DNA from: an uncultured Lachnospiraceae bacterium
Lineage (GTDB): Bacteria; Bacillota; Clostridia; Lachnospirales; Lachnospiraceae
Direction of reading: 5' to 3'
Assembly (NCBI GenBank): GCA_947626285.1
Contig: CANQRR010000002.1
Span: 1 to 64,000, forward strand
DNA length: 64,000 nucleotides
Shown here: positions 1 through 62,843 of the stretch, piece by piece
How positions within the stretch are numbered: position 1 is the first letter of the stretch
Layout of the letters: each line of letters opens with the position of its first letter
Notes under the pieces: model-generated
Seen by the model: only the letters and a program-made list of their open reading frames with translations
What the model was told of the DNA's origin: nothing
Databases searched by the model: none
Position numbers and translations under genes: made by a program

Positions 1-594
1 GTGCCATTTATCCGCCTGATGTCCTATTACAAATGTGCCATGATGGAGATTGAAACAAAATTCAATGTGTTGAATGAGGAATATTCTTTGGAGTTCGACC
101 GTAATCCGATCAGCAGTATCAAAACCCGGTTGAAAAATCCCCGCAGCATAAAAGAAAAAATAGAGCGGCGTGGCTTTCAGCCCACACTTTCCTCAATAGA
201 AGAAAACCTAAACGATATTGCCGGCGTTCGGGTAATCTGCTCATTCCCGGAGGATGTCTATGCGCTGTCAGAGGCGTTGCTCATACAGGATGACGTTACC
301 CTGATTGAAAAGAAAGATTACATAAAAACGCCGAAGCCCAACGGGTATAGAAGTCTGCACCTTATTGTTGCAATTCCGATTTTTTTGGCGCATGAAAAGC
401 GGATGATGAAAGTAGAAATCCAGTTGCGCACGATAGCGATGGATTTCTGGGCCAGCCTTGAACATCAGCTTCGTTATAAAAAGGACTCTGCATTCACCCC
501 GGAAATGGCTGAAGAACTTTATCAGTGCGCAAACCTCAGCGCGGAACTTGACCGGAGAATGGATGGTCTCCTAAAAAAGACCCAACAGAATTAA
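1..594 (+). CDS. RelA/SpoT-domain small alarmone synthetase (GTP pyrophosphokinase family), probably 5'-truncated by window edge
   Basis: Protein contains DIAGVRVICSFPEDVY...KPNGYRSLHLIV...VEIQLRTIAMDFWASLEHQLRYK, typical of RelA/SpoT synthetase domains. The residues before MEIETKFNVL look like an internal part of the family, so the gene likely starts left of base 1. Confidence 0.85.
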   Translation: MPFIRLMSYYKCAMMEIETKFNVLNEEYSLEFDRNPISSIKTRLKNPRSIKEKIERRGFQPTLSSIEENLNDIAGVRVICSFPEDVYALSEALLIQDDVTLIEKKDYIKTPKPNGYRSLHLIVAIPIFLAHEKRMMKVEIQLRTIAMDFWASLEHQLRYKKDSAFTPEMAEELYQCANLSAELDRRMDGLLKKTQQN

Positions 595-734
595 AATACT
601 CCGAAATACTCTGAAAGTATAATAGAAATGGCAGGACCTATGAATGGGTGAAGAAGACTGTTTCGTTTCAGTTTAGATTTCACTGCTATCATTGTCCTGA
701 AATGGAAAAAATCCAAATCGGAAGGGGAATCTTT

Positions 735-2549
735 ATGAAAGAAGTAAAGCATCCTAAGAAACCATTACTGTATTATTACGGCATTGTTATGCTTGTGCTG
801 GTCCTTTTTAACCTGATCGCCATGCCACGGATCGCACAGCGCCAGATCCAGGAGGTTGATTACGGCACATTTATGACCATGACGGAAGAAAAGAATATCG
901 GCCTGGTTGAGATTCAGAGCAACCAGATCCTGTTTACAGACAAGGAAGGAACTGCTGTCTATAAGACAGGCCTGATTGCTGATCTGGATCTCGTCAACCG
1001 TCTGCATGAGGCCGGGGCGCAGTTTTCGGGTGAGATCGTCGAGCAGGCCTCGCCGCTGCTCAGCTTTCTTTTGTCCTGGATTCTCCCGATTGTGATCTTC
1101 TTTATCATCGGACAATTCCTTTCCAGGAAAATGATGAACAAGGCCGGCGGGCCGAACTCCCTCATGTTCAATATCGGGAAAAGCAATGCCAGGGTCTATG
1201 TGAAATCCTCGGACGGCATCAAATTTTCCGATGTGGAAGGCGTAGATGAAGCGGAAGAAAGCCTGCAGGAGATTGTGGACTATCTGCATAACCCGGACAA
1301 ATACAAGGAGATCGGCGCGTCCATGCCAAAGGGAATCCTGCTGGTCGGCCCTCCCGGCACCGGCAAAACGATGCTCGCAAAGGCGGTCGCAGGAGAGGCC
1401 AACGTCCCGTTTTTCTCCATGTCCGGTTCCGAGTTTGTGGAAATGTTTGTCGGCATGGGCGCTTCCAAAGTCCGGGATCTGTTCAGACAGGCAAAGGAAA
1501 AAGCCCCCTGTATCGTCTTTATCGATGAGATCGACGCCATCGGACTAAGGCGTAACAGCGGAAACATGGGCGGCAACGATGAAAGGGAGCAGACGCTGAA
1601 CCAGTTGCTCACGGAAATGGACGGATTCGAGGATAACAGCGGCGTCATGATTTTGGCGGCGACCAACCGCCCTGAAGCGCTTGATCCCGCTTTGACACGC
1701 CCTGGCCGTTTTGACCGCCGTGTTCCCGTGGAACTCCCTGACCTGAAAGGCCGGGAAGCGATCCTGAAGGTTCATGCCAAAAAAGTAAAAATCGCCTCTG
1801 ACGTCGATTTTCTAAAGGTGGCGCGCATGGCCTCCGGCGCTTCCGGCGCGGAGCTTGCCAATATCATAAACGAAGCCGCCCTGCGCGCCGTCCGGGCAGG
1901 CAGAAAGGCAGCAACCCAAAGCGATCTGGAAGAAAGCATTGAGGTTGTGATCGCCGGCTATCAGAAGAAGAACGCGATCCTGACCGACAAGGAAAAAAAG
2001 ATCGTCTCCTATCATGAGATCGGTCATGCGCTGGTAGCCGCCAGACAGACAAATTCCGCACCTGTGCAGAAAATTACGATCATTCCCCGCACTTCGGGCG
2101 CTCTGGGCTATACCATGCAGGTGGATGAGGGCAACCATTACCTGATGAGCAGGGAAGAAATCGAAAACAAGATTGCCACGCTTACCGGCGGCCGGGCAGC
2201 AGAGGAGCTTGTCTTCAGCAGTCCGACCACGGGCGCATCCAATGATATCGAGCAGGCCACCAAGCTGGCCCGCGCCATGATTACGCGGTTCGGTATGAGC
2301 AAAGACTTTGATATGGTGGCGATGGAAAACGTGACCGGGCAATATCTCGGCGGCGATACGACACTCGCCTGTGCCGCCGAAACGCAGGCCCAGATTGACC
2401 GCCAGGTCGTAGAGCTGGTGAAAAAGCAGCATGAGAAAGCGGCGGGGATCCTGATGGAAAACCGCGGGAAGCTGGATGAACTGGCAAAATATCTGTATGA
2501 GCATGAGACGATCACAGGAGAAGAGTTTATGAAAATCCTGAATGGCTGA
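735..2549 (+). CDS. FtsH-type AAA+ membrane zinc metalloprotease (accessory copy)
   Basis: Walker [12 protein letters not shown] region, HEIGH zinc motif, N-terminal TM segments. ATG at 735 is preceded by a purine-rich RBS; the longer 648 start is less likely. Confidence 0.9.
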
Positions 2550-2615: not shown

Positions 2616-5600
2616 ATGCTGGAACTGAAAAACATCAAAAAAGACTATCCGGCCGGCGACGGCACGGTACACGCATTAAAGGGGATCTCACTGAAATTCC
2701 GGGACAACGATTTTGTTTCAATCCTCGGCCCTTCCGGCTGTGGGAAAACCACGATGCTCAATATCATCGGCGGTCTGGATCAATACACGGAAGGCGACTT
2801 GATCATCAACGGCCGCTCCACAAAGGATTTTAAGGATCGGGACTGGGATGCTTACCGCAATCACTCCATCGGCTTTGTATTCCAGAGTTACAACCTGATC
2901 CCGCATCAGACCGTACTCCGCAATGTGGAGCTGGCACTGACGCTATCGGGCGTCTCGAAATCGGAGCGCAAAAGGCGCGCAAAGGAAGCCCTCGAACGGG
3001 TCGGCCTTGGTACGCAGCTCAATAAGAAACCGGCAGAAATGTCCGGCGGGCAGATGCAGCGGGTGGCGATCGCACGCGCCATCGTCAACAATCCCGATAT
3101 TATTTTGGCGGACGAGCCGACCGGAGCACTGGATACAGAAACCAGCGTTCAGGTCATGGATATCCTCAAAGAGATTGCCAAAGACCGGCTGGTGGTGATG
3201 GTGACCCATAACCCCGACCTTGCAGAGAGGTATTCGACGCGCATCATCCGTATGCTGGACGGTGAGATCACCGATGATTCCGCTCCGCTCACACAGGAAG
3301 AAGAAAACCGGGAGCATCTGAAAGAAAAATCCAAAACGGAGAACAAGAAGCTGCCGTCCATGTCCTTCGCAACCTCTTTCGGACTGTCGCTCAAAAACCT
3401 GTTTACCAAAAAAGGGCGCACGATCCTTACCTCATTTGCGGGCAGTATCGGGATCATAGGGATCGCTTTGATTTTCGCGGTGTCACAGGGCATGACTGCC
3501 TACATTGATACGGTGCAGGAGGATACGCTTTCCTCCTATCCGCTGACGCTGGAAGCGCAGAGTATGGATATGTCCGCGTTGATGGAAACCTTTATCGGCG
3601 CAGCGCAGTCCACGCATGAACATGAAAAAGACGCAGTGTATGCCAAGGGCATGATCTATGATATGGTTAACGCCTTGAGTGAAATGGAAGAAAGCGAAAA
3701 TGATCTGGCGTCGTTCAAAAAGCACCTGGAAACGGAACTTGCAAAGCAAACCGATGATAATAAGCTCCGGGAGGCAGTAAACGGTATCCAGTACACTTAC
3801 GATCTGGATCTGCTGGTTTACACGAAAAATATGGATGGGGAGATTATCCGCTCCGATATGGAAGAACTCATGCAGGATTTTCTCGTAGAATATCTTGGTA
3901 CAGACATTTCTTCCCTGATGACTCTCCGGGATCAGTATGGGATCAGCGATTCGCCCATGCAGTCTATGATGCCCAGCGGGATGTCCTCACAGCTCTGGCA
4001 GGAGATGCTGCCTGGCGAGGATGGAAAACTGGTAAGCCCGCTGCTTGAAAAGCAGTATGATGTTGTCTATGGCTCATGGCCGACGGAATATGACGAGGTC
4101 GTGTTGGTGCTGGACGAAAACAACGAACTGAACGATATGTCTCTTTACGCTTTGGGGCTTTCGCCAAAGGAAGATGTTGACGCCATTATGGAGGCCGCGA
4201 TCAACCAGACGGAAGTGCCGGTAAACAAAAAGCAGTGGTCTTATGAGGATATCTGCAATATGGAATACCGGACGATCCTCAATTCTGACTGTTATACCCT
4301 GGATGGCGACACTGGAACCTACAAAGACCTCCGCACAACGGAGGCAGGTCTTCAATATCTGTACGATAACGCGATCCCGTTAAAAGTTTCCGGAATCATC
4401 CGCCCGAATGAGGATGCTGTTTCCACAATGCTGTCTGGTTCCATTGGGTATACAAGCAAACTGACGGAATATGTTATTGAACACTCAAAAGATTCTGAAG
4501 CCATCAAAGCGCAGCAGGCGGCGCCTTCTACCGATATTTTTACCGGGCTGCCGTTCAATGAAAACACCGGTTCCCTGTCCGATGCGGAAAAGGAAACCGC
4601 TTTCCGTGAATATATAGAGGGTATGGACGAGTCTCAAAAGGCAGCCGCGTACATCCAGATCATGAGCATCCCCACCGAAGAGCAGCTGGACGCAAGTGTC
4701 TCGCAGGCCATGGCATCTATGACAAGAGCTGATATGGAGTCGTCAATGGCGCAGGGCCTGATCGAGCAAATGGGGATGGACGAGGCAAGCGTCAAGGATT
4801 ACGTCAGCAGCATGAGCGATGAGGAACTGACCGAACTGTTTACGCAAATGGTCACCGAACAGGTGAAGATGCAATATGCCGCGCAGGTAAAGGAACAGAT
4901 GGGCGGAATGGAAGCGCCGCAGCTATCCGCTGCGCTGGACCAGGCGATGCCCGGTTACACGACCGAACAGTGCGCGCTCTTTTATGACGAGATCACGGAA
5001 TTTTCCGAATCCACCTATGAGGATAATCTGTCGGAGCTTGGCTGTGTAGACATTGAAAGCCCCGCAAGTATCAACATTTTTTCATCTTCCTTTGAAAACA
5101 AGGATGTGATTGAGGATGCTATTTCAGACTATAATGAAACCGTGGATGAACTGTCGCAGATCCGCTACACCGACTATGTGGGAATCATGATGTCCTCTGT
5201 TACGACGATCATCAACGCCATTACCTATGTGCTGATTGCTTTTGTCGCGATTTCCCTGGTCGTTTCCTCCATCATGATCGGCGTCATTACGCTGATCTCG
5301 GTACAGGAGCGCACGAAGGAGATCGGTATCCTGCGGGCGATCGGCGCCTCCAAACGCAATGTTTCCAGTATGTTCAATGCAGAGACCGTGATCATCGGAT
5401 TCACTTCCGGCACGCTTGGCGTGTTGGTTACCTACCTGCTGTGCATCCCTATCAACCTGGTCCTGCACCATTTGACCGGCATCGGAAATTTAAGCGCTTT
5501 CCTGCCGCTGCCTGTGGCGCTGATCCTGATTGCAATCAGCATGGCGCTGACGTTGATCGCCGGCATCATCCCATCCAGAAGTGCCGCAAAGAAGGATCCC

Positions 5601-5624
5601 GTTGTTGCGCTGAGGACGGAGTGA
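2616..5624 (+). CDS. ABC transporter ATP-binding/permease fusion (MacB/FtsX-like, large extracellular domain)
   Basis: N-terminal [14 protein letters not shown]-like [14 protein letters not shown] and DEPTGALD; C-terminal FtsX-type TM region [19 protein letters not shown]. Confidence 0.9.
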
Positions 5625-5647: not shown

Positions 5648-5721
5648 GGAACATTGCAAAGTATCGAAATGTTCCGAAATATTATTGTAATGTACTGAAA
5701 TGTGTTGAAATATCACGAAAT
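5648..5721. repeat. Inverted repeat GGAACATT-N12-AATGTTCC plus five GAAAT iterons in ~10-bp phase
   Basis: GAAAT at 5666, 5676, 5697, 5707, 5717; GGAACATT at 5648-5655 and AATGTTCC at 5668-5675. Confidence 0.6.
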
Positions 5722-5806
5722 CGATGCTAATATAGATACAACATATCAAAGACGTTTGGCGATGTACACTGGAGCTGGAGGAGGGCACAGGACAAAGGCG
5801 GAAATT
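5701..5806. repeat. Repeat A copy 1 (diverged copy of 7129-7234)
   Basis: tgtgttgaaatatcacgaaatcgatgctaatatagata...gagggcacaggacaaaggcggaaat matches 7129 onward with only a few substitutions. Confidence 0.85.
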
Positions 5807-5818
5807 ACGAGGAAAACT

Positions 5819-5866
5819 CGGGGCAACAGGATTTGAACCTGCGACCTCTCGCCCCAGCCGAGCGCG
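5819..5866 (-). pseudogene. Partial tRNA-Pro(GGG) 3'-end copy (att-like scar)
   Basis: cggggcaacaggatttgaacctgcgacctctcgccccagccgagcgcg nearly matches the 3' part of the intact tRNA at 7351-7423, then diverges. Confidence 0.85.
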
Positions 5867-5910
5867 AAAAACCCTTATTTTACGGGGGTTTCAGAATGCA
5901 AAAATGCCTT

Positions 5911-5940
5911 GGTAACTAAATGGTAACTAAAGGTAACTAA
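5911..5940. repeat. Three GGTAACTAA iterons with 10-11 bp spacing
   Basis: ggtaactaaa-tggtaactaa-aggtaactaa; two further copies at 7283 and 7293. Confidence 0.65.
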
Positions 5941-6120
5941 ATTCTAGCTGCCCTGGGGAAGGAAAGGAGGCAGTTCCGGATGTATGCAAAATCATATTAG
6001 GACATGGAAAGGGATCCTGCCTTCCATGTCCTTTTGATTTCCTGTATAATAATATAATGCAGCAAAACGGCAATGAATAATTATTATTGCCGATATGCTC
6101 AATATGCGGGGTGATTTATA

Positions 6121-6348
6121 GTGAACGATATTTCTATAAATGTTCTGAGAAGCAGAAGCTGCTTCAACAGGGCTGAACTGCTGCAGATTATGCGTAAGGA
6201 CGGAGATCAGATAAGCGACGCGACATTTAAGCGGAGACTCCAACAATACCTGAAGGATCGTTCCATCATACTCCATCTGGAGCAAGTAAAGAATATCTTG
6301 TCCAGATGGAGACTTTATGGAGTGACCCATCTTAGTTATTTGAGGTAA
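6121..6348 (+). CDS. Short protein, possible remnant of a winged-helix/antitoxin-like regulator
   Basis: RAELLQIMRKDGDQISDATFKRRLQQYLKDRSII resembles an N-terminal wHTH; the protein ends abruptly at 75 aa. Confidence 0.35.
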   Translation: MNDISINVLRSRSCFNRAELLQIMRKDGDQISDATFKRRLQQYLKDRSIILHLEQVKNILSRWRLYGVTHLSYLR

Positions 6349-6355
6349 TATTTCA

Positions 6356-6901
6356 TTACCAAACCCTCAGTGTCGAGAAATCTATGGTCAAATCATCATA
6401 AATGCCAACGGCGATAGAATCAGAGAATGTGAAATCTGCGGTGCTGCCAGCTTCAAAATCCCATACAGTGATTTTCTCCTTGTCCGGGTCTACGATCCAG
6501 TAGTTTCGAACACCTGCAGAACGGTACTTGAACAATTTTGTGTAATAGTCCATCTGTTTGCTGGCGGGTGAGACAATTTCTATGATCCAATCCGGCGCTC
6601 CGTTGCATCCCTTTTCACTCAGCTTGTCGGAATTGCAGATTACTGAGAGATCAGGCTCCACGTAATTGCGGTCGTCTTCATTCAGGAATACAGCGAATGG
6701 AGCAGGATAGATTTCACAGGAACCGTTGTGTCTGCTGATGTAATCGTGGATTATAGCATGGAGCTCGCTGACAATTTTCTGATGAGTTCTGGATGGCGGT
6801 GCCATATAATAGATTTGTCCGTCGATGAGTTCTGCCCGAGTCCCATCCGGGATGGAATAGATGTCTTCGACAGTATAACATTTTTCCTGTGCTAATGCCA
6901 T
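6356..6901 (-). CDS. Uma2 family (DUF820, restriction-endonuclease-like fold) protein
   Basis: TVEDIYSIPDGTRAELIDGQIYYMAPPSRTHQKI...YVEPDLSVI...GAPDWIIEIVSPASKQMDYYTKLFKYRSAGVRNYWIVDPDK is typical of Uma2. Confidence 0.85.
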   Translation of the reverse strand: MALAQEKCYTVEDIYSIPDGTRAELIDGQIYYMAPPSRTHQKIVSELHAIIHDYISRHNGSCEIYPAPFAVFLNEDDRNYVEPDLSVICNSDKLSEKGCNGAPDWIIEIVSPASKQMDYYTKLFKYRSAGVRNYWIVDPDKEKITVWDFEAGSTADFTFSDSIAVGIYDDLTIDFSTLRVW

Positions 6902-7128
6902 ATGAGATGCACTTCCTTTCCGGTATAGCTTTATTCAAATGATCATTGGCGAGTTCATTCACACGTTTCCCTGTTTATTGCATTATCTTACCTGGTGGTG
7001 AACTCACTTTACCTTTTTATCAGTGATTATAATATATCACAGCTTATTCGCCATAGCAAGAAAAGTAAATAGGATTTCGGATTTCTGTTTGATAGGAAAA
7101 TTGTGGCTTTCGAAAAAGACAGCGAAGA

Positions 7129-7234
7129 TGTGTTGAAATATCACGAAATCGATGCTAATATAGATACAGCATATCAAAGACGTTTAGCGATGTACCTTGG
7201 AACTGGAGGAGGGCACAGGACAAAAGCGGAAATC
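7129..7234. repeat. Repeat A copy 2
   Basis: Matches 5701-5806. It lies in short ORF 7103-7291, with several differences synonymous in that frame. Confidence 0.85.
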
Positions 7235-7324
7235 ATCTCCAAAGTGTCCACTGTAATGCCCAGGCTGCCAAGCTGGTTCGATGGTAACTAAAAGTAACTA
7301 AGTTTTGCGACTGAGTAAACATAA

Positions 7325-7346
7325 AAAACCCCGTATTTACGGGGAA
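7325..7346 (-). terminator. Terminator of tRNA-Pro
   Basis: Minus strand CCCCGTAAATACGGGG followed by TTTTTT, just downstream of the tRNA. Confidence 0.7.
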
Positions 7347-7350
7347 AACT

Positions 7351-7423
7351 CGGGGCAACAGGATTTGAACCTGCGACCTCTCGGCCCCCAGCCGAGCGCG
7401 CTACCAAGCTACGCCATACCCCG
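7351..7423 (-). tRNA. tRNA-Pro(GGG)
   Basis: Minus strand CGGGGTATGGCGTAGCTTGGTAGCGCGCTCGGCTGGGGGCCGAGAGGTCGCAGGTTCAAATCCTGTTGCCCCG: 7-bp acceptor stem, anticodon loop CTGGGGG, GGTTCAAATCC T arm. Confidence 0.93.
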
Positions 7424-7590
7424 AAGCAGTTCTATTCTACTAGAAATTATAAGGATTGTAAAGGAAAAAATCAGGGACTCTGAAAAACATTCGCGCGACA
7501 GTATTTCGGGAAACAGGAAAAGATTAACGAAAAGAGTGCAAGAGTAAGGGCAAAAAGCACAGGGCAAAGAGAAACAGGACAGGTAACACA

Positions 7591-9399
7591 ATGCGTTGGC
7601 TGAAAAAGGGATATTCCCGTATCCGGCAATCATTTACGACCCATATCGCCATGCCTGTGACGATCTCCGTGATCGTCCTTCTTTTTGCTGCGATGCTGAT
7701 CTTTCAGTTCTATGTGAAGAATCAATACTTCACGTATCTGTTGGAGGAGACGGACCGGAGAGAGGCCGCGGTGCTGGAGGCGGTAGCGGCCAACCTTGAC
7801 AATTCCCTGCAGAATGTCGTGGGGACCGCGTGCAGGATCGCGATCAACAGCGAATTCCGGGATATGGTGGAGACGACGCAGCAGGAGCGGACGGGAAGAG
7901 ACTGGCTGATGTTGCGCGAGGAGATGGCCTTGATGGCCCAGTATTCCAGCAGCATCGCCGCCGTGACGGTCGTGAACGAGGACGGAGTTTTCCGAGAGTA
8001 CGGAAGATACTGGGAGCGGGGCGGCTACGAAAACCTCTGGACAGGAGAAAATCTGGAGGTGCTTGACGTTCTCTACCAGGAGGTCAGGCGGAAGCTGAAT
8101 GACAGGACGACGATGCGATACTGCGCCAGCGCTGCGCCTGCCAGACATGCCAGCATTCCGGAAACGGCGCTGTTTCATCTGGCTGTGCCCCTGGTGGGCG
8201 GACGCTCCGGCTGGGATAATGTGGACAATGTCGTCGTGGTGACCTTCCGTCTGGACGCGATCCTGGACGAGGACACGCTGAGAGGATATATGACGGACGA
8301 AAACGGCGGGATTATCTACCACGAGGATCCGAAATATATCGGCCTGGATGCCGGGGAATACCGGAGACAGTTTCCTGAGTATGAGGACATCAGCCGTGAT
8401 CTGCGGTATTTCGGCTGGACCGCGCACGCCTCGATCGATGTGGAGGCGATGCATGCGCGCGTGAATCGCCTGTACCATACGGGCATTTTTGTCTATCTGC
8501 TGCTCCTGTTTGTCTGCGCCCTCATCTGGCTGCTGTTTATTCAACGGCTCCTGCGGCCGGTGGGCGATATCCGGGACGCGATGGAGGACGTGCGGCTCGG
8601 GCGCAAGAGGGAGAAGATCCCGATCGACGGTTCGCACGAGATCTGGCAGCTTGCTGAGGATTACAACGCGATGCTGGACGCCCTGCATGAGCAGCAGGAG
8701 GAGACGGAGCGGCAGTATCAGGAGAAGACGCTTTCCATGAAGCAGAAGAACCGGGCGGAGCGCGAGGCACTGGAATCCCAGATCAACGCCCATTTCCTCT
8801 GCAATACGCTGACGGCGATCAACTACAACGCCGTCGAGGCCGGCAACGAGGAGGTGGCTGATCTCCTGAAGAACCTCTCGAATATGCTCTCCTATTCTTT
8901 TTCCAGAAAGAATGTACATATCACGCTCGGGCAGGAGATCCACTGGGTGGAGGAGTATCTGTATCTGCAGAAATTCCGGCTGATGGAGGTCTTCGACTAC
9001 CGGATCGACTTTCCGGACGAGTACGGCGAGTGGCCCTCCTGCAAGCTGTTTCTGCAGCCTTTCGTGGAGAATTCGATCCAGCACGGCTTCGAGGGCCGCG
9101 AGAAGGGCGGGCTGATCACGGTCAGCGGCTGCCCGGACGGGAAACGTTTCCGGCTCTCGATCCGGGACAATGGCTGCGGGATGACGGAGGACGTGGAGGC
9201 AGTCATCCAGCAGATCCTGAGGGAGGAGCATGTGCTGGATCTGCACGGCGTCGGGATCGGAGTACAGAACGCGGTCACGCGCCTGAGGATGTACTATGGG
9301 AAAGAGTTCGCGGTGACGATGGAGACGAAGGCGGGGGAGGGCACCTGCTTTACCTTCTGGCTGCCGCTTGTGATAAATCAGGAGGAGGACTTTGCCTGA
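7591..9399 (+). CDS. YesM-type sensor histidine kinase
   Basis: Two TM segments, HAMP region, LESQINAHFLCNTLTAI phosphoacceptor region, HATPase_c (NSIQHG, DNGCG). Confidence 0.9.
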   Translation: MRWLKKGYSRIRQSFTTHIAMPVTISVIVLLFAAMLIFQFYVKNQYFTYLLEETDRREAAVLEAVAANLDNSLQNVVGTACRIAINSEFRDMVETTQQERTGRDWLMLREEMALMAQYSSSIAAVTVVNEDGVFREYGRYWERGGYENLWTGENLEVLDVLYQEVRRKLNDRTTMRYCASAAPARHASIPETALFHLAVPLVGGRSGWDNVDNVVVVTFRLDAILDEDTLRGYMTDENGGIIYHEDPKYIGLDAGEYRRQFPEYEDISRDLRYFGWTAHASIDVEAMHARVNRLYHTGIFVYLLLLFVCALIWLLFIQRLLRPVGDIRDAMEDVRLGRKREKIPIDGSHEIWQLAEDYNAMLDALHEQQEETERQYQEKTLSMKQKNRAEREALESQINAHFLCNTLTAINYNAVEAGNEEVADLLKNLSNMLSYSFSRKNVHITLGQEIHWVEEYLYLQKFRLMEVFDYRIDFPDEYGEWPSCKLFLQPFVENSIQHGFEGREKGGLITVSGCPDGKRFRLSIRDNGCGMTEDVEAVIQQILREEHVLDLHGVGIGVQNAVTRLRMYYGKEFAVTMETKAGEGTCFTFWLPLVINQEEDFA

Positions 9400-9482
9400 C
9401 GGCATGAGATGAGACGGGATGGCGGATGGCACAGGCAGTTTGGCGGATCCGGATAAGCTGATTCCGGAGATGGGAGTGTGGT

Positions 9483-10238
9483 ATGAGGATCATGATAGCG
9501 GAGGACGAGCAGCGCGCGCGTCAGGGAATGGAACGGCTGATCGGAAGCATCGAGGGCGACTATGAGATCGTGGCCTCAGTTTCCAATGGGCAGACGGCGC
9601 TGGAGCGGATCCTGGAGCTGCGCCCGGATCTCGTGTTTGTGGACATCAAGATGCCGTTTTTGGACGGACTGTCTCTGATCCGTGCCGTGCGCGCCCATTC
9701 GCTCCCGACCGAGTTTGTTGTCGTGAGCGCGTACGCGGACTTTCAATTTGCGCAGGAGTCGATCTCGCTCGAAGTGGCTGGATACCTGCTCAAGCCGGCG
9801 GCCCGCGAAGAGGTGGAGAAGGTGCTGCGGAAGGTGTCCGCGAGACTTCAGAACCGACATTTCTATTCCGTGCAGGAGACAAACGATCTGCGCGGGAAAT
9901 ATCCGGACGCGCACCCGCTGATCTTGCGCGCGCTGGACATGATACAGGACGGATATGCAGGGAAGATCAGCCAGAGAAAGCTGGCGGAGGAGCTGGGCTT
10001 AAGCCCGGAGTATTTCAGTTATCTGTTCAACAAAAACACCGGCGTGACCTTTTCGGCCTTTCTGCGCGAATACCGCATCGAGCAGGCGAAGCGGCTGTAC
10101 GGCAGCGGCGCGTGCGACCGCAAGGACGTCCCGTATGCGGTCGGTTTTTCGGATGCAAAATATTTTAATAAGGTGTTCCGCGAGGTGACGGGACAGACTC
10201 CGTCGGAATATCTGTCGAATTGTCAAAAAAATATCTGA
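9483..10238 (+). CDS. YesN-type response regulator with AraC-family HTH
   Basis: REC domain (IAEDEQRARQG, FVDIKMPFLDG) and C-terminal AraC HTH (KLAEELGLSPEYFSYLFNK...VGFSDAKYFNKVFREVTGQTPSEYL). Confidence 0.92.
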   Translation: MRIMIAEDEQRARQGMERLIGSIEGDYEIVASVSNGQTALERILELRPDLVFVDIKMPFLDGLSLIRAVRAHSLPTEFVVVSAYADFQFAQESISLEVAGYLLKPAAREEVEKVLRKVSARLQNRHFYSVQETNDLRGKYPDAHPLILRALDMIQDGYAGKISQRKLAEELGLSPEYFSYLFNKNTGVTFSAFLREYRIEQAKRLYGSGACDRKDVPYAVGFSDAKYFNKVFREVTGQTPSEYLSNCQKNI

Positions 10239-10336
10239 ATCTTAAAATATTTTCCAAATCTTAAAATTTTTCCCCATGAATCTGACGAAAATCACAACAG
10301 CGTCGGTTGCGACGCCGGGATTTTCTGTGCTAAAAT
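10238..10336 (+). promoter_or_regulatory. Regulatory region of the sugar ABC operon: tandem 19-bp repeat, interrupted palindrome, extended -10 promoter
   Basis: AATCTTAAAATATTTTCCA/AATCTTAAAATTTTTCCCC at 10238-10275; GAAAATC..GCGTCG-GTTG-CGACGC..GATTTTC; TTGCGA-N18-TAAAAT preceded by TGC. Confidence 0.5.
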
Positions 10337-10418
10337 ACAGATACACAAAGCAGTGACGCGGCTTTTGTTGTGCAAAAGCACGATGAGATCCGGACGTGAA
10401 ACAAAAAAAGGAGGAAAT

Positions 10419-11672
10419 ATGATGAAAAAGAGATTGTTTGTAGCAGGCGCTGCCGTGATGGCTATGATGGCCGCATCGATGACGGTGAGCGCGGAGCCGA
10501 CGGAAATTACCCTTTGGAATTACTTCGACGCTTCCGCGGACAAAGACGCGATCATTCAGTGGGTGGACGAGTACAATTCGCTCCAGGATGACATCCATAT
10601 CACCAGCACCTATGTTTCCAGAGAAGAGCTGATGAACCAGTACACGGTAGGCGCGCTTTCCGGCGAGCTTCCGGACATCGGCATGGTGGACTCCCCGGAT
10701 ATGGCGTCTTACATTTCCCTGGGCGTGTTCGAGGACATCACGGATCAGCTTGAGGCATGGGGCGAACTTGACCAGTTCTATCCGGGGCCGCTGACCTCCT
10801 GTATGGATGCGGACGGAAGACTGTACGGACTTCCGCAGAACAGCAACTGCCTGGCTCTGGCCTGCAACATGGATCTGCTCAAGGCGGCAGGCTACGACCA
10901 TATGCCGGCAAGCCTTGACGAGTTCAAGGAGATGGTAGCCGCTACCACAAACCCGGACGACGATGTGTACGGTTTCGCGATGTGCTGCGTATCCACTGAG
11001 GAGGGTACGTTCCAGCTTCTTCCGTGGCTTCGCTCCGCATCGGGCGGCGAGGGCGTGAACGTTGACAACCTGACCGCGGAATCCGCGGTGAACGGCCTTG
11101 GCGTGCTCGGCGACTTCGTTGCGAACGGCTACATGAGCAAAGAGTGTGTGAACTGGACGCAGTCCGACGCGTTCAATCAGTTCGCGGCTGGCAAGGCTGC
11201 CTTCGCAGAAGTAGGCACCTGGCATCTGGCAATGACCGACGCGATCGGCGGCGCGTTTGAGTATGGCTTCTGCCTGCTCCCGACCGGTGACGAAGGGACT
11301 TCCACCTCCACGATCGGCGGCGAGAACTTCGGCGTGTGCAGCGGTGCGGCAGATGTTGACGCCTGCGTAGAGTTCCTGAAATGGATGTGCTCCAAAGAGA
11401 AAGAGGCTGAGTGGGCAGTGGTTGCCGGCAAGATCCCGACCCGTCAGGATTCCGAGGCTCAGTACACATACGAGACCGACGGCTTCGACGTGTTCGTTGA
11501 CGAGATGAACTACGCTCAGGCACGCGGCCCGCATCCGGAGTGGCCGACGATCTCTGAGGCGATCTACACGGCGGCACAGTCCGTATTCGTAGACGGCACG
11601 GCTCCGGCTGACGCGCTTGCGACAGCGATGGAGAAGATCACTCCGATCGTAGAGGAGACCCCGCTTCCGTAA
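10419..11672 (+). CDS. ABC transporter extracellular sugar-binding protein
   Basis: Signal peptide MMKKRLFVAGAAVMAMMAASMTVSA, ITLWNYF family start, strong RBS AAAGGAGG. Confidence 0.9.
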   Translation: MMKKRLFVAGAAVMAMMAASMTVSAEPTEITLWNYFDASADKDAIIQWVDEYNSLQDDIHITSTYVSREELMNQYTVGALSGELPDIGMVDSPDMASYISLGVFEDITDQLEAWGELDQFYPGPLTSCMDADGRLYGLPQNSNCLALACNMDLLKAAGYDHMPASLDEFKEMVAATTNPDDDVYGFAMCCVSTEEGTFQLLPWLRSASGGEGVNVDNLTAESAVNGLGVLGDFVANGYMSKECVNWTQSDAFNQFAAGKAAFAEVGTWHLAMTDAIGGAFEYGFCLLPTGDEGTSTSTIGGENFGVCSGAADVDACVEFLKWMCSKEKEAEWAVVAGKIPTRQDSEAQYTYETDGFDVFVDEMNYAQARGPHPEWPTISEAIYTAAQSVFVDGTAPADALATAMEKITPIVEETPLP

Positions 11673-11683
11673 TGATCATTCAG

Positions 11684-11720
11684 ACGGGCTGCCGTGAAGC
11701 GATTTGCGGCAGTCCGTTTC
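11684..11720 (+). terminator. Intercistronic hairpin between binding protein and permease genes
   Basis: ACGGGCTGCCG...CGGCAGTCCGT then TTTC. Confidence 0.5.
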
Positions 11721-11781
11721 TGATGTACGGATTCCTTCGCAAGGGGATCTGCAGACTGAAGTTTAGGAAGGAGTTAAATCC

Positions 11782-12672
11782 GTGAAGAAAATGACGTCAA
11801 TGTCGGCCCGAAAGACGCGCGAGGCGTACTGCTTTATCCTGCCGGCATTTATTTATATTCTGTTTGTGTTGGGCTATCCGCTCGTCTATAATGTTTACCT
11901 GAGCCTGAGAGACGTCGATGTCAAGAACCTCACGAAGGGCGGCGACGTCTTTATCGGGCTGAAGAACTATGTGGACCTTTTTGGCAACGCCACGTTCCGC
12001 CTGGTGATACGGAACACCTTTATATTCACGATCGCGTGCCTGGTCTTCCAGTTCACGATCGGCTTCGCGCTGGCGCTGTTTTTCTATCAGAGATTCCGCC
12101 TGTCGGGTCCGGTCCGCGGCCTTCTTCTGGTCAGCTACATGATCCCGATGTCGGTGACCGGACTACTCGGCAAGAATATCTTTTCCAACGCCGGACTGAT
12201 CAACAACCTTCTGGCGAAGATCGGGATCGCGGGTCCGGAATGGCTCGTCAACACGTCGACCGCGCTGATCGCGGTCATCATCATGAACTGCTGGGTGGGC
12301 ATTCCGTTCAACATGCTGCTTCTGATCTCGGGACTGACAAGCATTTCAAACGACGTCTACGAGAGCGCGTCCATCGACGGGGCAAACTGGATCCAGCGCT
12401 TCACCCACATCACGCTCCCGCTGATGAAGGGTTCCATGATGTCGGTGCTGATGCTCGGATTCATCTACACGTTCCGCGCGTTCGACCTGATGTACATCAT
12501 GACGGCCGGCGGACCGCTGAACTCGACGGACGTGCTGGGCACCTATTCCTATATGCTGTCGTTCACGCAGTATAAGTTCTCACAGGGCTCGGCGGTGGCG
12601 ATGGTGCTCTTTGCCTGCCTGTTTGTCGTCGGACTGTTTTACCTGAGACTGATCGCAAAGGAGGATGATTGA
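11782..12672 (+). CDS. Sugar ABC transporter permease (MalF/UgpA type)
   Basis: EAA-like motif ESASIDGANWIQRFTHITLP; six TM segments. Confidence 0.9.
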   Translation: MKKMTSMSARKTREAYCFILPAFIYILFVLGYPLVYNVYLSLRDVDVKNLTKGGDVFIGLKNYVDLFGNATFRLVIRNTFIFTIACLVFQFTIGFALALFFYQRFRLSGPVRGLLLVSYMIPMSVTGLLGKNIFSNAGLINNLLAKIGIAGPEWLVNTSTALIAVIIMNCWVGIPFNMLLLISGLTSISNDVYESASIDGANWIQRFTHITLPLMKGSMMSVLMLGFIYTFRAFDLMYIMTAGGPLNSTDVLGTYSYMLSFTQYKFSQGSAVAMVLFACLFVVGLFYLRLIAKEDD

Positions 12673-12674
12673 GT

Positions 12675-13520
12675 ATGAAACAGATGACTGGTAAGAAAGA
12701 GGCCAGAAGAGATCTGCGCAACTGCATCATCGCGGTCGTCCTCGCGTTCATCTTCCTGTTTCCGGTGTATTGGATGATACAGATCTCGTTCAAGTCGGAC
12801 GCCGAGACCTTCGGCAAGATTCTGAGCTACTATCCGAGGGAGTTTACGTTCGCGCCCTGGCTGGTGAACCTTCAGGACAAGACGTTTTTGCTTTCTCTGC
12901 GCAACAGCTTTATCAACGGTTTCCTGACAATGGGGATCACGCTGCTTCTCGGCGTTCCCGCGGCCTACGGCATGGGACGTTACCGCGTGCGCGGTAGCAG
13001 TGTCTTCCTGCTGGTGTTCCTGGTGTCGCAGATGCTGCCGGCGTCCCTGACGCTGACGCCGATGTACCTGATCTTCAACAAGATCCATTTCCTCGGGACG
13101 CATTTCACGGCTCCGGTGGCGATCGCGGCCGCGTCGATCCCGTTCGCGATCATCACACTGCGGCCGTATTTCAAGAGTATTCCGGTCGCGCTCGACGAGG
13201 CGGCCCGTCTGGACGGCTGCGGCTCGTTCCGCGCGTTCGTGTCGGTCATGATCCCGGCGGTCAAGACCGGTATCGTGACGATCGTAGTCATCTCGTTTTT
13301 GAACGGCTGGAATGATCTGGTATACTCCATGACGTTCAACGTGGGTGAGACAATGCGTCCTCTGACGGCGAACATCTACAAATTCCAGAACGCGTACGGC
13401 ACGAAGTGGAACTGTATCATGGCGTACGGGACGATCCTCGTGCTCCCGGTCATTCTGCTGTTTGTCTTCCTGCAGAAGTACATCGTGGGCGGACTCGTGG
13501 CAGGCGCCGTGAAGGATTGA
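12675..13520 (+). CDS. Sugar ABC transporter permease (MalG/UgpE type)
   Basis: EAA-like motif DEAARLDGCGSFRAFVSVMIP; C-terminal QKYIVGGLVAGAVKD. Confidence 0.92.
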   Translation: MKQMTGKKEARRDLRNCIIAVVLAFIFLFPVYWMIQISFKSDAETFGKILSYYPREFTFAPWLVNLQDKTFLLSLRNSFINGFLTMGITLLLGVPAAYGMGRYRVRGSSVFLLVFLVSQMLPASLTLTPMYLIFNKIHFLGTHFTAPVAIAAASIPFAIITLRPYFKSIPVALDEAARLDGCGSFRAFVSVMIPAVKTGIVTIVVISFLNGWNDLVYSMTFNVGETMRPLTANIYKFQNAYGTKWNCIMAYGTILVLPVILLFVFLQKYIVGGLVAGAVKD

Positions 13521-13594
13521 CGCGGCGCGGATTTCCATGTGACGCGTCAGAAAACAGAACTGACGCGGAAGATTGCAGATGAAGGAGAACAGAT

Positions 13595-15640
13595 ATGGCG
13601 AATCAGGACGAAATCAGAGAAGTATTCGGCTATTTTGAGAGAAAGGGCGACGCCCTGTGCTACCGCTATGAGGCGGAGCGGCTCGTCATCGAGCCCTGGG
13701 GCGAGAACAGCCTGAGAGTGCGCGCGACAAAGCTCGCGCAGATGCCGGAGGAGGACTGGGCGCTTCTGCCGCCGCAGAAACATCCGACGGTACAGATCGA
13801 GACGCGCGAGGACGGCGGCTCGATCACGAACGGCAAGATCAAAGCGGAGCTCAACCTGATCGGAAAGCTCACCTTCTACAATCAGAGGGGCGAGGTGCTT
13901 CTGGAGGAGTACGTGCGCAACCGGAAGGACATGTTCGGGAGCACATGCAGCTCACTTGACGTGGAAGCGAGGGAGTTCAAGCCGATCATCGGAGGCGATT
14001 ATCGCCTGGCGATGCGCTTCGTCTCCGAGCCGAAGGAAAAGCTGTACGGCATGGGACAGTACCAGCAGCCGTACCTCGATGTGAAGGGAGCGGATCTGGA
14101 GCTGGCGCACCGCAACTCGCAGGCGAGCGTGCCGTTTGTGCTCTCCAGTCTCGGCTACGGTTTCCTCTGGAATAACCCGGCGGTCGGGCGCGTGAACTTC
14201 GGCAAGAATATTACGACCTGGGAGGCATTCTCCTCGAAGAAGCTTGACTACTGGATCACGGCGGGCGACACTCCGGCGGAGATCGAGGAGGCGTACGCGA
14301 ACGCGACGGGCAAGGTTCCGATGATGCCGGATTACGCGATGGGCTTCTGGCAGTGTAAGCTGCGCTACCAGACGCAGGAGGAGCTGCTGGAGGTCGCGCG
14401 GGAGTACAAGCGCCGCGGGCTGCCGATCTCGGTGATCGTGGTTGACTTTTTCCACTGGCCGTGCCAGGGCGAGTGGAAGTTTGACCCGGTGTACTGGCCG
14501 GACCCGGACGCGATGATCGCGGAGCTGAAGGAGATGGGGATCGAACTTATGGTATCCATCTGGCCGACCGTCGACTACCGCAGCGAGAATTTCGAGGAGA
14601 TGAAGAGCAAAGGCCTGCTGATCCGCACGGAGCGGGGCTACCAGATTTCGATGGATTTTCAGGGAAATACGCTGCACTACGACGCGACGAACCCGGAGGC
14701 CAGAGCGTACGTCTGGCAGAAGGCGAAACAGAATTATTACGACAAGGGCGTGAAGATCTTCTGGCTCGATGAGGCGGAGCCGGAGTACACGGTGTATGAT
14801 TTCGAGAATTACCGCTATCATCTGGGCCCGGACATCCAGGTTGGAAACATCTATCCCGCCATGTACGCGAAGACCTTCTTCGACGGCATGAAGGCGGAGG
14901 GGCAGGAGAACATCATCAACCTCCTGCGCTGTGCTTGGGCGGGTTCCCAGAAATACGGCGCGCTCGTGTGGTCGGGAGACATCAAGTCGTCGTTCCCGAG
15001 CATGAAGAACCAGGTGGCGGCCGGCCTGAACATGGGGATCGCCGGCATCCCGTGGTGGACGACGGACATCGGCGGCTTCTTCGGCGCGAACATAAACGAC
15101 CCGGCGTTCCATGAGCTTCTGGTGCGCTGGTTCGAGTACGGCTGCTTCTGTCCGGTCATGCGCCTGCACGGCTATCGCTGGCCGCTCCAGCCGCAGTACG
15201 GCACGACGGGCGGCGCGACCTGCATTTCCGGCGCCCCAAATGAAGTGTGGAGCTACACGGACGAAGTGTATGAGATCCTTTCGAGTTACCTGCGCCTGAG
15301 AGAGGCGATGCGGCCCTATGTCGCAGAGCGCATGAAGGAGGCACACGAGAAGGGTACGCCGGTGATGCGCCCGATGTTCTACGATTTCCCGGAGGATGCG
15401 GTCTGCTGGGAGACGGAGACGCAGTATATGTTCGGCCCGGACGTTCTGGTGAAGCCGGTGACGGATGCGGGCGCGCGCAGCGTGAAGCTCTACCTCCCGA
15501 AGGGCAGCGAGTGGACGGATGCCTGGACGAAGGAGACGTTCGCGGGCGGACGATGGGTTGACGTGGACGCGCCGCTTGCGCAGATTCCGGTATTCACGCG
15601 GAATGGCTATGTGCTGCCGGTGGAGGCCGAAAAAATCTGA
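13595..15640 (+). CDS. GH31 glycoside hydrolase (alpha-xylosidase/alpha-glucosidase-like)
   Basis: KIFWLDEAEPE catalytic region, PWWTTDIGGFF, FRPMFYDFPED-type C-terminal motifs. Confidence 0.88.
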   Translation: MANQDEIREVFGYFERKGDALCYRYEAERLVIEPWGENSLRVRATKLAQMPEEDWALLPPQKHPTVQIETREDGGSITNGKIKAELNLIGKLTFYNQRGEVLLEEYVRNRKDMFGSTCSSLDVEAREFKPIIGGDYRLAMRFVSEPKEKLYGMGQYQQPYLDVKGADLELAHRNSQASVPFVLSSLGYGFLWNNPAVGRVNFGKNITTWEAFSSKKLDYWITAGDTPAEIEEAYANATGKVPMMPDYAMGFWQCKLRYQTQEELLEVAREYKRRGLPISVIVVDFFHWPCQGEWKFDPVYWPDPDAMIAELKEMGIELMVSIWPTVDYRSENFEEMKSKGLLIRTERGYQISMDFQGNTLHYDATNPEARAYVWQKAKQNYYDKGVKIFWLDEAEPEYTVYDFENYRYHLGPDIQVGNIYPAMYAKTFFDGMKAEGQENIINLLRCAWAGSQKYGALVWSGDIKSSFPSMKNQVAAGLNMGIAGIPWWTTDIGGFFGANINDPAFHELLVRWFEYGCFCPVMRLHGYRWPLQPQYGTTGGATCISGAPNEVWSYTDEVYEILSSYLRLREAMRPYVAERMKEAHEKGTPVMRPMFYDFPEDAVCWETETQYMFGPDVLVKPVTDAGARSVKLYLPKGSEWTDAWTKETFAGGRWVDVDAPLAQIPVFTRNGYVLPVEAEKI

Positions 15641-15799
15641 GACGAACGCACTCAAGAAATCCGATGCGGGGTGAGTTTGAAAAGTGATTTGAAAAGTGGG
15701 CATGGAATTTTATGGACAAGCGCCCGCGGATTGGTATAAAATAAGATGATCGATCATAACCGGGACGAAACGGTTATGAGGACAGAGGAGGCTCCTGCT

Positions 15800-16450
15800 A
15801 TGAAGAGGCGGATATCATCTGGCAGTCATCGCGGAATATATGAGACGGGATCAGGGTTTTATCACTACATGGGAAAGATATGCGACCTGATGCTTGTCAG
15901 TATTTTCTGGCTGCTGGGATGCGTTCCGGTCGTGACGGCGGGGGCCTCTTTTGCCGCGCTTTACTGTGCGACGTCGCGGTCGATCCGAGAGGACATCGGC
16001 ACGGTGAGCAAAAAGTTCTGGGATTCTTTCAAAAAGAATCTGAAGGATTCCATAGCAGTCTGGCTGATCTTCGGAGGGGCCATTTTCCTGATCCTGCTGA
16101 ATTACGGGATCGTGCGGGAGCAGTTCGGCGGACTGCCCGGACTGTTTCTGCAGATGTTCTATCTGTTCTGCGCGCTGCTTCTGATCGCGGCCGCGAGCTA
16201 CGCGTTTCCGGCTCTGTCGCGCTTTGACATGCCGCCCGGCTGGATCGTGAAGCTCTCGTTTTACCTGACGTTCCGGCACCTGCCGAGGACGCTTCTGCTG
16301 ATCGGCCTGTTTGCCGTTTCCTATCTGGTGCTCCTGATCAATATGCTGACGGTCGTGATCGTGCCGGGGCTCTACGCGCTGGCGGCCTCCGCGCTGATCG
16401 ATCCGCTGTTGGACCAGCATATGCCGGACGGGGAAGCGGAGGGACGCTGA
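15800..16450 (+). CDS. DUF624/YesL family membrane protein
   Basis: YHYMGKICDLMLVSIFWLLGCVPVVTAGASFAALY; GAGGAGG RBS before ATG 15800. Confidence 0.85.
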   Translation: MKRRISSGSHRGIYETGSGFYHYMGKICDLMLVSIFWLLGCVPVVTAGASFAALYCATSRSIREDIGTVSKKFWDSFKKNLKDSIAVWLIFGGAIFLILLNYGIVREQFGGLPGLFLQMFYLFCALLLIAAASYAFPALSRFDMPPGWIVKLSFYLTFRHLPRTLLLIGLFAVSYLVLLINMLTVVIVPGLYALAASALIDPLLDQHMPDGEAEGR

Positions 16451-16590
16451 AAGACAGCTGAAAATTGGGAAAAGGGCATTAAAGCTGCGTGAAAGATCGT
16501 GCTTTGAAAATAGGGGGAGTTGTGCGCTGATGCCGCACGTTTACTATTCAAAATAGAATGGAACCCCTGTGAATATAGAGGAGGAGCTTT

Positions 16591-18867
16591 ATGAAATTTA
16601 CGAACGGATTCTGGCTGCTGAAGGACGAGATCCAGCCGCTCTACGCCGTGGAGTACGCGGGGCATGAGCTGAAGGACCGGGAGTTGACCGTGTATGCGGT
16701 GGGAAAACACGTTGCGGATCGCGGGGACTGCCTGAATATCGGGATGCTGACGCTGCGGCTGTACAGCCCGGCGGAGAATGTGCTCCATGTCACGGCGACA
16801 CACTTTGAGGGAGGGGCGCAGAAGCATATTTTTGCCGCCGCCGCTGACACGGCTCCCGAGGTGAGCGTCACGGAGGACGACGCCACGGTGACCTACCAGA
16901 CGGGGAGTTTGCGCGCCGTGATCAGCAAGGAACCAAATCACTGGAAGATTGCCTATTACGACGGGGATCGTTATCTGACGCGTACGGGCTACCGGAATAT
17001 GGCGTATATGACGAACCGGGACACGGACGGACGCTACATGGTGGAGCAGCTCGGCCTGACGCCGGGCGAGTATGTGTACGGGCTCGGGGAACGGTACACG
17101 CCTTTTGTCAAAAACGGACAGAGCGTGGAGATCTGGAACGAGGACGGAGGGACGGCGAGCGAGCAGACTTACAAGAATATTCCGTTTTATCTCACGAACA
17201 GGGGATACGGCGTGCTCGTGGATTCGCTGGGCGATGTGGAGTTCGAGGTCGCGAGCGAGAAGGTGGAGGAGGTGCAGTTCTCTGTCAAGGGGGAGCGCAT
17301 CGGGTACTACCTGATCGCGGGCGGCGATCCGAAGGGCACGATTGAGCGCTACACCGGCGTGTTCGGACGCCCCGCGCTGCCGCCGGCCTGGTCGTTCGGG
17401 CTGTGGCTTACGACCTCGTTCACGACCAATTACGATGAGGAGACGACAAGCAGCTTCATTCAGGGGATGGCGGACCGCGCGATCCCGCTGCACGTGTTCC
17501 ATTTTGACTGTTACTGGATGCAGGCGTACCAGTGGTGCGATTTCGTCTGGGATCCGAAGACGTTCCCGGATCCGGAGGGTATGATCGCGCGCTATCACGA
17601 GCGGGGGCTGAAGATCTGCGTGTGGATCAACCCCTACATCGGGCAGAAGTCGCATCTCTTCGCGGAGGGAAAGGCAGCCGGATATCTGGTGAGGAAGAAG
17701 GATGGCTCCGTCTGGCAGACCGATCTCTGGCAGGCCGGCATGGGGCTTGTGGACTTCACGAATCCCGACGCGGTCGTCTGGTACCGGGACAAGCTGAAGG
17801 CGCTGCTCGACATCGGCGTGGACTGCTTCAAGACGGATTTCGGCGAGCGGATCCCGGTTCGCGATATCGTGTGGCACGACGGCTCCTGCGCGGAGGATAT
17901 GCACAATTACTATACTTATCTGTACAATCAGGCGGTGTTTGAGCTGCTGGAGCAGGAGAAGGGCAGAGGCAACGCGGTCCTGTTCGCGCGCTCCGCGACG
18001 GTCGGGGGACAGCAGTTCCCGGCGCACTGGGGCGGCGACTGCTCGGCGACCTACTCCTCGATGGCGGAGACGCTGCGCGGGGGACTTTCCCTGGCGGCCT
18101 GCGGCTTCGGGTTCTGGAGCCACGACATCAGCGGCTTTGAGCAGACGGCTACGCCGGACATTTATAAGCGCTGGTGCCAGTTCGGTCTGCTGAGCTCACA
18201 CAGCCGGCTGCACGGTTCTTCTTCGTACCGCGTGCCGTGGTTGTTCGACGACGAGGCCTGCGTGGTGCTCAAAGAGATGGTGGAGCTGAAGTGTCGTCTG
18301 ATGCCGTATCTGTACCGTCTGGCGGTCGAGTCGCACGAGACGGGCGTCCCGATGATGCGCCCGATGTTTGTGGAGTTCCCGGACGACCGGAGCTGCCTGC
18401 CGCTCGACATGCAGTATATGATGGGCGAAAGCCTGCTCGTGGCGCCGGTCTTTGAGGAGACGGGCGAGGTCGAATATTATCTGCCGAAGGGGAGATGGTA
18501 CAATCTCCTGACCGGAGAGACGCTCACGGGCGGCGGCTGGCAGAAGGGACGCTTCGACTATCACGGCATGCCGCTGCTCATCGCGCAAAACACGATCCTG
18601 CCTCTGGGCTCCTGCTGTACGAAGCCGGATTACGATTTCGAGCAGGACGTGACGCTGTTCCTCACAGAGTTTGAGGACGGGGCGCGCGCACGCACGTTTG
18701 TGCCGGATATAGCGGGCAGGCGTGCGATGGAGATCGAGGCGGTCCGTGCAGGGCAGACGATCACGGTGACCGTGCAGGGCGGCGCAAGCTGGGAGTGCAG
18801 CATGCCGGACGGCTGTGCGGCAAAGATTGAGAAGAGGGAAAATCAGGCAGTCATCACACTGAAGTAA
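16591..18867 (+). CDS. GH31 alpha-xylosidase (YicI-like)
   Basis: DCFKTDFGERIPVRDIVWHDG nucleophile region as in YicI, FWSHDISGFE, CYWMQAYQWCDFVWDPKTFPDP. Confidence 0.92.
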   Translation: MKFTNGFWLLKDEIQPLYAVEYAGHELKDRELTVYAVGKHVADRGDCLNIGMLTLRLYSPAENVLHVTATHFEGGAQKHIFAAAADTAPEVSVTEDDATVTYQTGSLRAVISKEPNHWKIAYYDGDRYLTRTGYRNMAYMTNRDTDGRYMVEQLGLTPGEYVYGLGERYTPFVKNGQSVEIWNEDGGTASEQTYKNIPFYLTNRGYGVLVDSLGDVEFEVASEKVEEVQFSVKGERIGYYLIAGGDPKGTIERYTGVFGRPALPPAWSFGLWLTTSFTTNYDEETTSSFIQGMADRAIPLHVFHFDCYWMQAYQWCDFVWDPKTFPDPEGMIARYHERGLKICVWINPYIGQKSHLFAEGKAAGYLVRKKDGSVWQTDLWQAGMGLVDFTNPDAVVWYRDKLKALLDIGVDCFKTDFGERIPVRDIVWHDGSCAEDMHNYYTYLYNQAVFELLEQEKGRGNAVLFARSATVGGQQFPAHWGGDCSATYSSMAETLRGGLSLAACGFGFWSHDISGFEQTATPDIYKRWCQFGLLSSHSRLHGSSSYRVPWLFDDEACVVLKEMVELKCRLMPYLYRLAVESHETGVPMMRPMFVEFPDDRSCLPLDMQYMMGESLLVAPVFEETGEVEYYLPKGRWYNLLTGETLTGGGWQKGRFDYHGMPLLIAQNTILPLGSCCTKPDYDFEQDVTLFLTEFEDGARARTFVPDIAGRRAMEIEAVRAGQTITVTVQGGASWECSMPDGCAAKIEKRENQAVITLK

Positions 18868-18883
18868 GGAGAGGAGAAACGAG

Positions 18884-20794: not shown

Positions 20795-20868
20795 TGTTTT
20801 GCGCGGATCCGGCTTTTTGATCCGGTGAGCGGTGAGCTCAGGCGTACGAAAAGGGAGGAGGAGGAACG

Positions 20869-24808: not shown

Positions 24809-24883
24809 GCCGGGCAGGAATCCTGTGGTTGACAAATCTTTCGTTCGATGTTACAGTTTCTCAGGAAAGGGAGAGTGCAGATC

Positions 24884-62634: not shown

Positions 62635-62843
62635 AACTACTCCTTTCCTGAGAAATATTTTGTTCAGTATCAGAATATGACGCCGGCGCTTAAATGAGAG
62701 TTGTACCAATTCATCCGGTGCGTCATACACAGATTATTTTGCGGAAAATCGCGGGGAAAATTCCTGTTTTACTGGAAAATAGATTGGGAATATGCTATAC
62801 TTTGTTGTCAACAGGAAATGTATGGGACAACGGAAGGGGTATT

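Follow-up and report, generated by a model that had tools for sequence, protein, structure and literature searches.

A probable composite, decayed tandem island in the 3′ part of tRNA-Pro(GGG) in an uncultured Lachnospiraceae bacterium

Introduction

How does a bacterial tRNA gene come to stand beside a partial copy of itself, with the same short repeat in front of both? The question is raised by a tRNA-Pro(GGG) locus in the genome of an uncultured Lachnospiraceae bacterium (GCA_947626285.1). The window, by which we mean the whole stretch of 64,000 nucleotides that was analysed, starts at the first base of contig C2 (CANQRR010000002.1) of this 147-contig genome. A preliminary description of the window had proposed that two related elements, or one element plus a remnant, accreted at the tRNA, a proposal now supported by a third att copy, by empty sites in other species and by ends shared between the units. 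We consider it very probable that the locus holds a composite and decayed tandem island of about 18.7 kb, inserted in the 3′ part of tRNA-Pro(GGG).

Results

The tRNA-Pro(GGG) gene, its scars and repeat A

The intact tRNA-Pro(GGG) gene was located by ARAGORN on the minus strand at 7349-7424, which confirms the gene proposed at 7351-7423 and corrects its extent; it would be the target as rebuilt by the newest element. Its 3′ part, reaching past the anticodon stem-loop, forms the proximal core or att (7348-7400, minus strand), delimited by alignment with the scars at 5816, at C13:61338 and in G009. The internal scar, aligned at 5816-5866 on the minus strand and probably the att between two elements, is a partial copy of 51 bp. 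Starting at the tRNA 3′ end, it extends across the anticodon stem-loop, of whose loop 2 bp are missing, and its similarity to the tRNA stops short after GAGCGCG. A third tRNA-Pro 3′ scar, of 52 bp, occurs in the same genome at C13:61338, at the distal end of the island. Both elements are bounded by tRNA cores, with att kept at both ends and 1-2 bp lost in the scars, and the tRNA is intact at one end and its 3′ part directly repeated at the other, the arrangement by which integration into a tRNA 3′ end is recognised. The crossover itself would have taken place at this core.

Within the window, the two copies of the tRNA 3′ portion are each preceded by repeat A, an arrangement noticed in the preliminary description and borne out by ARAGORN and alignment. 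The left copy of the repeat (5700-5805, plus strand) holds a promoter-like site at 5705-5733, and the right one (7128-7233, plus strand) is in frame with an integrase tail; they are identical at 100 of 106 positions (94%). There is no further repeat A in the window, where the best other stretch matches at fewer than 60 of the 106 positions, nor elsewhere in the genus except for a weak 34-bp match in G011, and its reading frame matched no family in Pfam. The right copy continues into the 3′ tail of the integrase and the arm repeats; the left one meets an internal deletion, previously put at about 115 bp and here measured as 104 bp (7234-7337 absent), which joins GCGGAAAT to TACGAGG. Both copies share one fusion point with the integrase tail region.

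Element ends and a remnant of an integrase

The left end of the right-hand element (5867-6032, plus strand) contains arm-like repeats at 5911-5940 and a terminator-like hairpin at 5999-6032, scored on the minus strand. Arm-like GGTAACTAA repeats and the terminator are common to the left ends of both elements, and the GGTAACTAAATGGTAACTAAAGGTAACTAA repeats that accompany the hairpin at these left ends are putative arm-type integrase sites. Scar and left end together (5813-6040) are 99.6% identical to C13:61335-61563 and 97% identical to contig C37 of G009.

At the right end, positions 7217-7291 (plus strand) encode the last ~24 codons of an integrase, ending in KAEIISKVSTVMPRLPSWFDGN and a stop codon that lies inside the first arm repeat, with 79% identity to an integrase fragment of G034 (E 1.7e-6). 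The arm-like repeats GGTAACTAAAAGTAACTAA follow at 7283-7301 (plus strand), and a terminator-like hairpin of the tRNA at 7329-7344 (minus strand). An integrase and a distal att copy had been expected further to the left: the att copy is there, at C13:61338, and of the integrase the genome holds this 3′ tail beside the tRNA, with no intact cognate integrase found. We call the elements decayed for this reason, and the same decay makes excised circles unlikely.

On C13, a fused right-end/left-end joint between arm repeats lies at 62585-62691 (L039 7586-7692), and seems to have arisen when the tRNA core separating two units was deleted. In front of this joint stands a VapBC unit, which G009 lacks at the corresponding place.

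Reconstruction of the island and its chromosomal flanks

C13 ends in the same 77 bases with which C101 begins; the match is exact and stops there, which is what an assembly overlap should look like. C101 ends inside dnaK and C2 begins inside a RelA/SpoT-domain gene, the left end of C2 having no overlap with another contig. In G007, dnaK, RelA and FtsH lie in one cluster with 92-95% DNA identity to the pieces found here, and from this cluster, rather than from joined sequence, we infer that C101 and C2 are linked; the spacing in G007 predicts a gap of about 1.86 kb between C101 and window position 1, mostly occupied by dnaK. The composite island would then measure ~18.7 kb (1838 + 7621 + ~1860 + 7348 bases), in which the C101-C2 link is the inferred part and the rest is sequence.

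An uninterrupted form of the locus is found in close relatives and sister species (G022, G068, G069 and G028), which have one intact tRNA-Pro(GGG) with its 3′ end abutting an NTP-transferase gene; the search for related strains with both tRNA copies and no element, which would speak against insertion, returned none. In our genome the NTP-transferase gene lies near the end of C13, with the scar directly after its stop codon and then the left end, and the C13 flank joined to the window tRNA can be aligned with the empty site of G022 along 1089 bp, with 82% identity. The opposite side of the tRNA is occupied in G068 by two ABC genes and leuA, and the same genes, the right flank of the ancestral empty site, lie in the window at 20869-26551 (plus strand; 70%, 72% and 97% in tblastn with the G068 genes, the last being the protein identity of leuA). 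With the NTP-transferase side and the ABC-ABC-leuA side both identified, C13 and C2 fall on either side of one island.

In the window, a block of ~13 kb (7591-20800) parts tRNA-Pro from ABC-ABC-leuA. It contains genes for a histidine kinase, a response regulator, a sugar-binding protein, ABC permeases and a glycosidase; a related cluster occurs elsewhere in G003 (C5:72162; 66-89% protein identity), and no copy of the tRNA 5′ flank that could explain the block was found. The orientation of tRNA-Pro(GGG) relative to its neighbours also varies among species (L078, L080, L082, L121): the NTP-transferase gene is at its 3′ side in G022, G068 and G069, G017 and others have that gene at the 5′ side, and in G034 the 3′ side is taken by the ABC-leuA genes. 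In G017, two tRNA-Pro(CGG) genes stand 1.29 kb apart in direct order (L118 2912-2985 and 4199-4272), possibly another duplicated target.

Cargo and its movement between species

The predicted order of the island is VapBC, PIN, AbiE, AbiE, two-component system, dnaK, RelA, FtsH, ABC, Uma2 and tRNA-Pro. The part on C13 carries VapBC-type genes, then the fused right/left end and then a truncated PIN gene; C101 carries two AbiEi/AbiEii pairs (PADLOC, E-values down to 2e-120), a response regulator, a histidine kinase, a zinc-ribbon protein and the start of dnaK. The window begins with a RelA/SpoT-domain gene cut by the contig start (1-594, plus strand; PF04607), small alarmone synthetase-like with NF053588 below its cut-off, followed on the same strand by an FtsH protease at 648-2549 (TIGR01241 above cut-off) and, at 2616-5624, by a MacB-like ABC transporter with an FtsX domain, annotated as cargo. 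The RelA, FtsH and ABC genes had been taken for cargo, and in the reconstructed order they indeed lie between the distal and the proximal att copies.

Beyond the left end, a truncated AbiEi-like antitoxin gene (6122-6268, plus strand) belongs to a segment (6031-6271) that is 93% identical to C101:59-297, identified as AbiEi by PADLOC. It is followed by a Uma2 unit at 6269-7106 on the minus strand (gene 6356-6901; PF05685, E 3e-31). The earlier view of this 1.5-kb Uma2 island as the residue of another element is strengthened, the right element being ~1.5 kb long with an AbiEi remnant. The Uma2 gene and its flanks form a sharply bounded unit that interrupts the AbiEi gene (6269-7106), begins at its left edge with the inverted repeat CTCCATCTGGA..TCCAGATGGAG, and recurs in another setting in G069 (L074 690-1527); they may move as a unit. 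In two other species, G017 (L080) and G016 (L088), a Uma2 gene likewise immediately adjoins tRNA-Pro(GGG) at its 3′ end, where no recognisable att or arm sequences are seen.

Several of these pieces are more alike between species than the chromosome around them. G009 has the same left end and scar beside the same NTP-transferase gene, and its left end is 97% identical to ours where the NTP-transferase gene is 78.5% identical, which we count in favour of movement between species. Between the Uma2 unit and contig C81 of G069, DNA identity is 98.3%, against 91% for leuA and 80% for the NTP-transferase gene, and FtsH is 95.5% identical to contig C154 of G007, in which leuA reaches only 81%, a disparity that again agrees with RelA and FtsH being cargo. 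A cluster of J-domain, DnaK, RelA, glycosyltransferase and FtsH genes is common to window positions 1-2549 and G007:C154 (L192; 92-95% DNA identity), and looks like a travelling stress-response cluster.

Relatives of the integrase

Among the 32 tRNA-Pro(GGG) loci compared in the genus, such an integrase remnant occurs only in G034, where the tRNA-Pro(GGG) gene has next to it a 96-aa fragment of the same integrase, along with arms and a terminator resembling those here; the loci of G011 and G032 have similar arm motifs. Relatives of the G034 fragment, sought in a 397-genome sample of the family, face tRNA-Pro or tRNA-Leu in four other genera (tRNA-Pro(GGG) in G319, tRNA-Pro(CGG) in G260 and G453, tRNA-Leu in G301), with GATTACC repeats resembling arms between integrase and tRNA in G319 and G301. 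No distal att copies for these four were found in the adjoining stretches examined.

An intact relative of 434 aa is present in G008, 49% identical over the compared 73-aa C-terminal stretch, in an element of 6.9 kb between 70-bp direct repeats of 94% identity that share a 27-bp stretch with tRNA-Pro. The genes of this element include a replication initiator (PF23343) and an ATPase-like gene, with no capsid gene seen, and it looks IME-like. In IMG/VR, neither the integrase fragment nor a 30-base arm pattern found a match and a 20-base arm pattern matched two contigs; a 21-base pattern, run against the genome collection, matched the contig of G009 and two from Belliella.

Discussion

A proposed order of events

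The arrangement would be explained if an element, presumably with a tyrosine integrase, had inserted at the tRNA core and rebuilt the tRNA at one end, with the old 3′ half left next to the NTP-transferase gene as a scar. The rebuilt tRNA would then have received a second element, related to the first, whose insertion produced the second scar at 5816-5866. Both would have lost their integrases and are presumably immobile today; the right element would have shrunk to ~1.5 kb (AbiEi remnant and Uma2), and the left one would have kept VapBC, a truncated PIN gene, two AbiE pairs, a two-component system, DnaK, an alarmone synthetase, FtsH and an ABC exporter. Four observations weigh against this account: C101 and C2 do not meet in sequence; neither an intact cognate integrase nor a relaxase or phage gene was found to reveal the ancestor; a simple arrival of two intact elements leaves the shared integrase-tail fusion unexplained; and divergence is unequal, the left ends being 99.6% identical and the repeat A copies 94%. 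Since both repeat A copies end at one fusion point, the second element must have arrived already decayed, moved by another integrase, or have been copied in place.

The latter course, one integration followed by a segmental duplication in situ, in which unequal recombination between att or arm repeats created the second scar, left end and repeat A before deletions and the Uma2 insertion shrank the second copy, is possible, if somewhat unlikely. It would account for the common fusion point and for the near identity of the left ends, and the C13 copy at 62583 indicates that recombination between arm repeats happens here. It fits poorly with the different cargo of the two units and with the 6% difference between the repeat A copies, by which the duplication must be old, yet the left end is nearly unchanged; besides, the 7% by which the AbiEi remnant and the C101 gene differ equals the distance seen between species (92.5-93% identity), which favours a sister element. 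We moderately prefer sequential arrival to duplication in place. Our confidence in the tandem decayed island concerns the island as such; the duplication reading shares most of its anatomy, and the likelihoods voiced here overlap and are not meant to sum to one.

That the loss of the integrase body is seen beside both repeat A copies, and that the genome has three near-identical left ends, with a different toxin-antitoxin or nuclease gene after each, also brings to mind minimal cassettes without integrase, moved by an integrase in trans and collecting in tandem at tRNA-Pro. The repeated unit would consist of the same left end, one toxin-antitoxin or nuclease gene and an integrase-tail right end, and the VapBC genes between left end and fused joint on C13, lacking there in G009, would make a third such unit. 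We think this decidedly unlikely: neither other tRNA genes nor viral contigs yielded a unit standing free or alone, and no intact cognate integrase was found in this genome. Nor is an integron cassette array suggested by units that lie at one locus between tRNA cores and arm repeats. As for the ancestor, phages too make use of tyrosine integrases at tRNA 3′ ends, and their satellites are among the carriers of AbiE and other defence genes. Descent from a prophage or phage satellite, in place of a conjugative or mobilizable element, is nevertheless unlikely: there is no phage gene in the assembled island parts, phage records match the tRNA sequence only, and the intact G008 relative pairs its replication initiator with an ATPase-like gene and no visible capsid gene. 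An assembly fault might be suspected in a genome of 147 contigs with 4.75% contamination, and in a window that starts at a contig end. A chimera or a duplicated assembly path is highly improbable all the same, given that G009 has the same left end and scar beside the same gene and that the repeat copies differ by 6%, and an assembly artefact was rejected on the agreement of both flanks with the gene order of sister species.

Comparison with known islands

Streptococci contain CIMEs accreted one after another at a tRNA gene or a housekeeping gene (PMC5704250, PMC7563491); they are decayed elements that keep att sites and lack mobilization and recombination genes, the classical ones measuring 1.2-13 kb (PMC7563491). 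The island shares with them the tandem position at one target gene, the direct-repeat att copies in between and the loss of recombination and transfer genes, and we count as a likeness their cargo of 1.2-13 kb (PMC5704250, PMC7563491); no integrase or mobilization gene is present among the annotated genes of its assembled parts, as in the definition of CIMEs. Unlike in streptococci, there is no intact ICE or IME in tandem here, the target is tRNA-Pro(GGG) in Lachnospiraceae, and the cargo consists of AbiE, VapBC and Uma2 genes and the DnaK-RelA-FtsH cluster. The best reading is that the island works like accreted CIMEs, with most of their definition in place, and is CIME-like; we do not file it firmly as a CIME, as it would then have to descend from an ICE or IME, and it retains an integrase remnant and no transfer gene.

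Tn6031 is listed at a tRNA-Pro 3′ end (PMC5704250). As in tyrosine-integrase IMEs at tRNA-Pro, the integrase 3′ end faces the tRNA 3′ end and the tRNA is rebuilt at one junction; unlike them, the elements here are decayed, the closest intact relative found (G008, 6.9 kb) having 49% identity over 73 aa. CGI48 of Shewanella putrefaciens (PMC8978831) is likewise described as a composite island at a tRNA gene, tRNA-Trp, with toxin-antitoxin cargo; ours differs in being much smaller and decayed, with several toxin-antitoxin and Abi systems near its left end.

Significance

This is no new kind of system; it is an ordinary but clear case of islands piling up and decaying. The junction of the NTP-transferase gene and tRNA-Pro(GGG) is a well-delimited hotspot with empty and occupied states across species, at which the DnaK, alarmone synthetase and FtsH cluster and the AbiE, VapBC and Uma2 genes appear as exchangeable cargo. 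A process of accretion and decay known from streptococci is in this way shown in an uncultured genus of the Lachnospiraceae.
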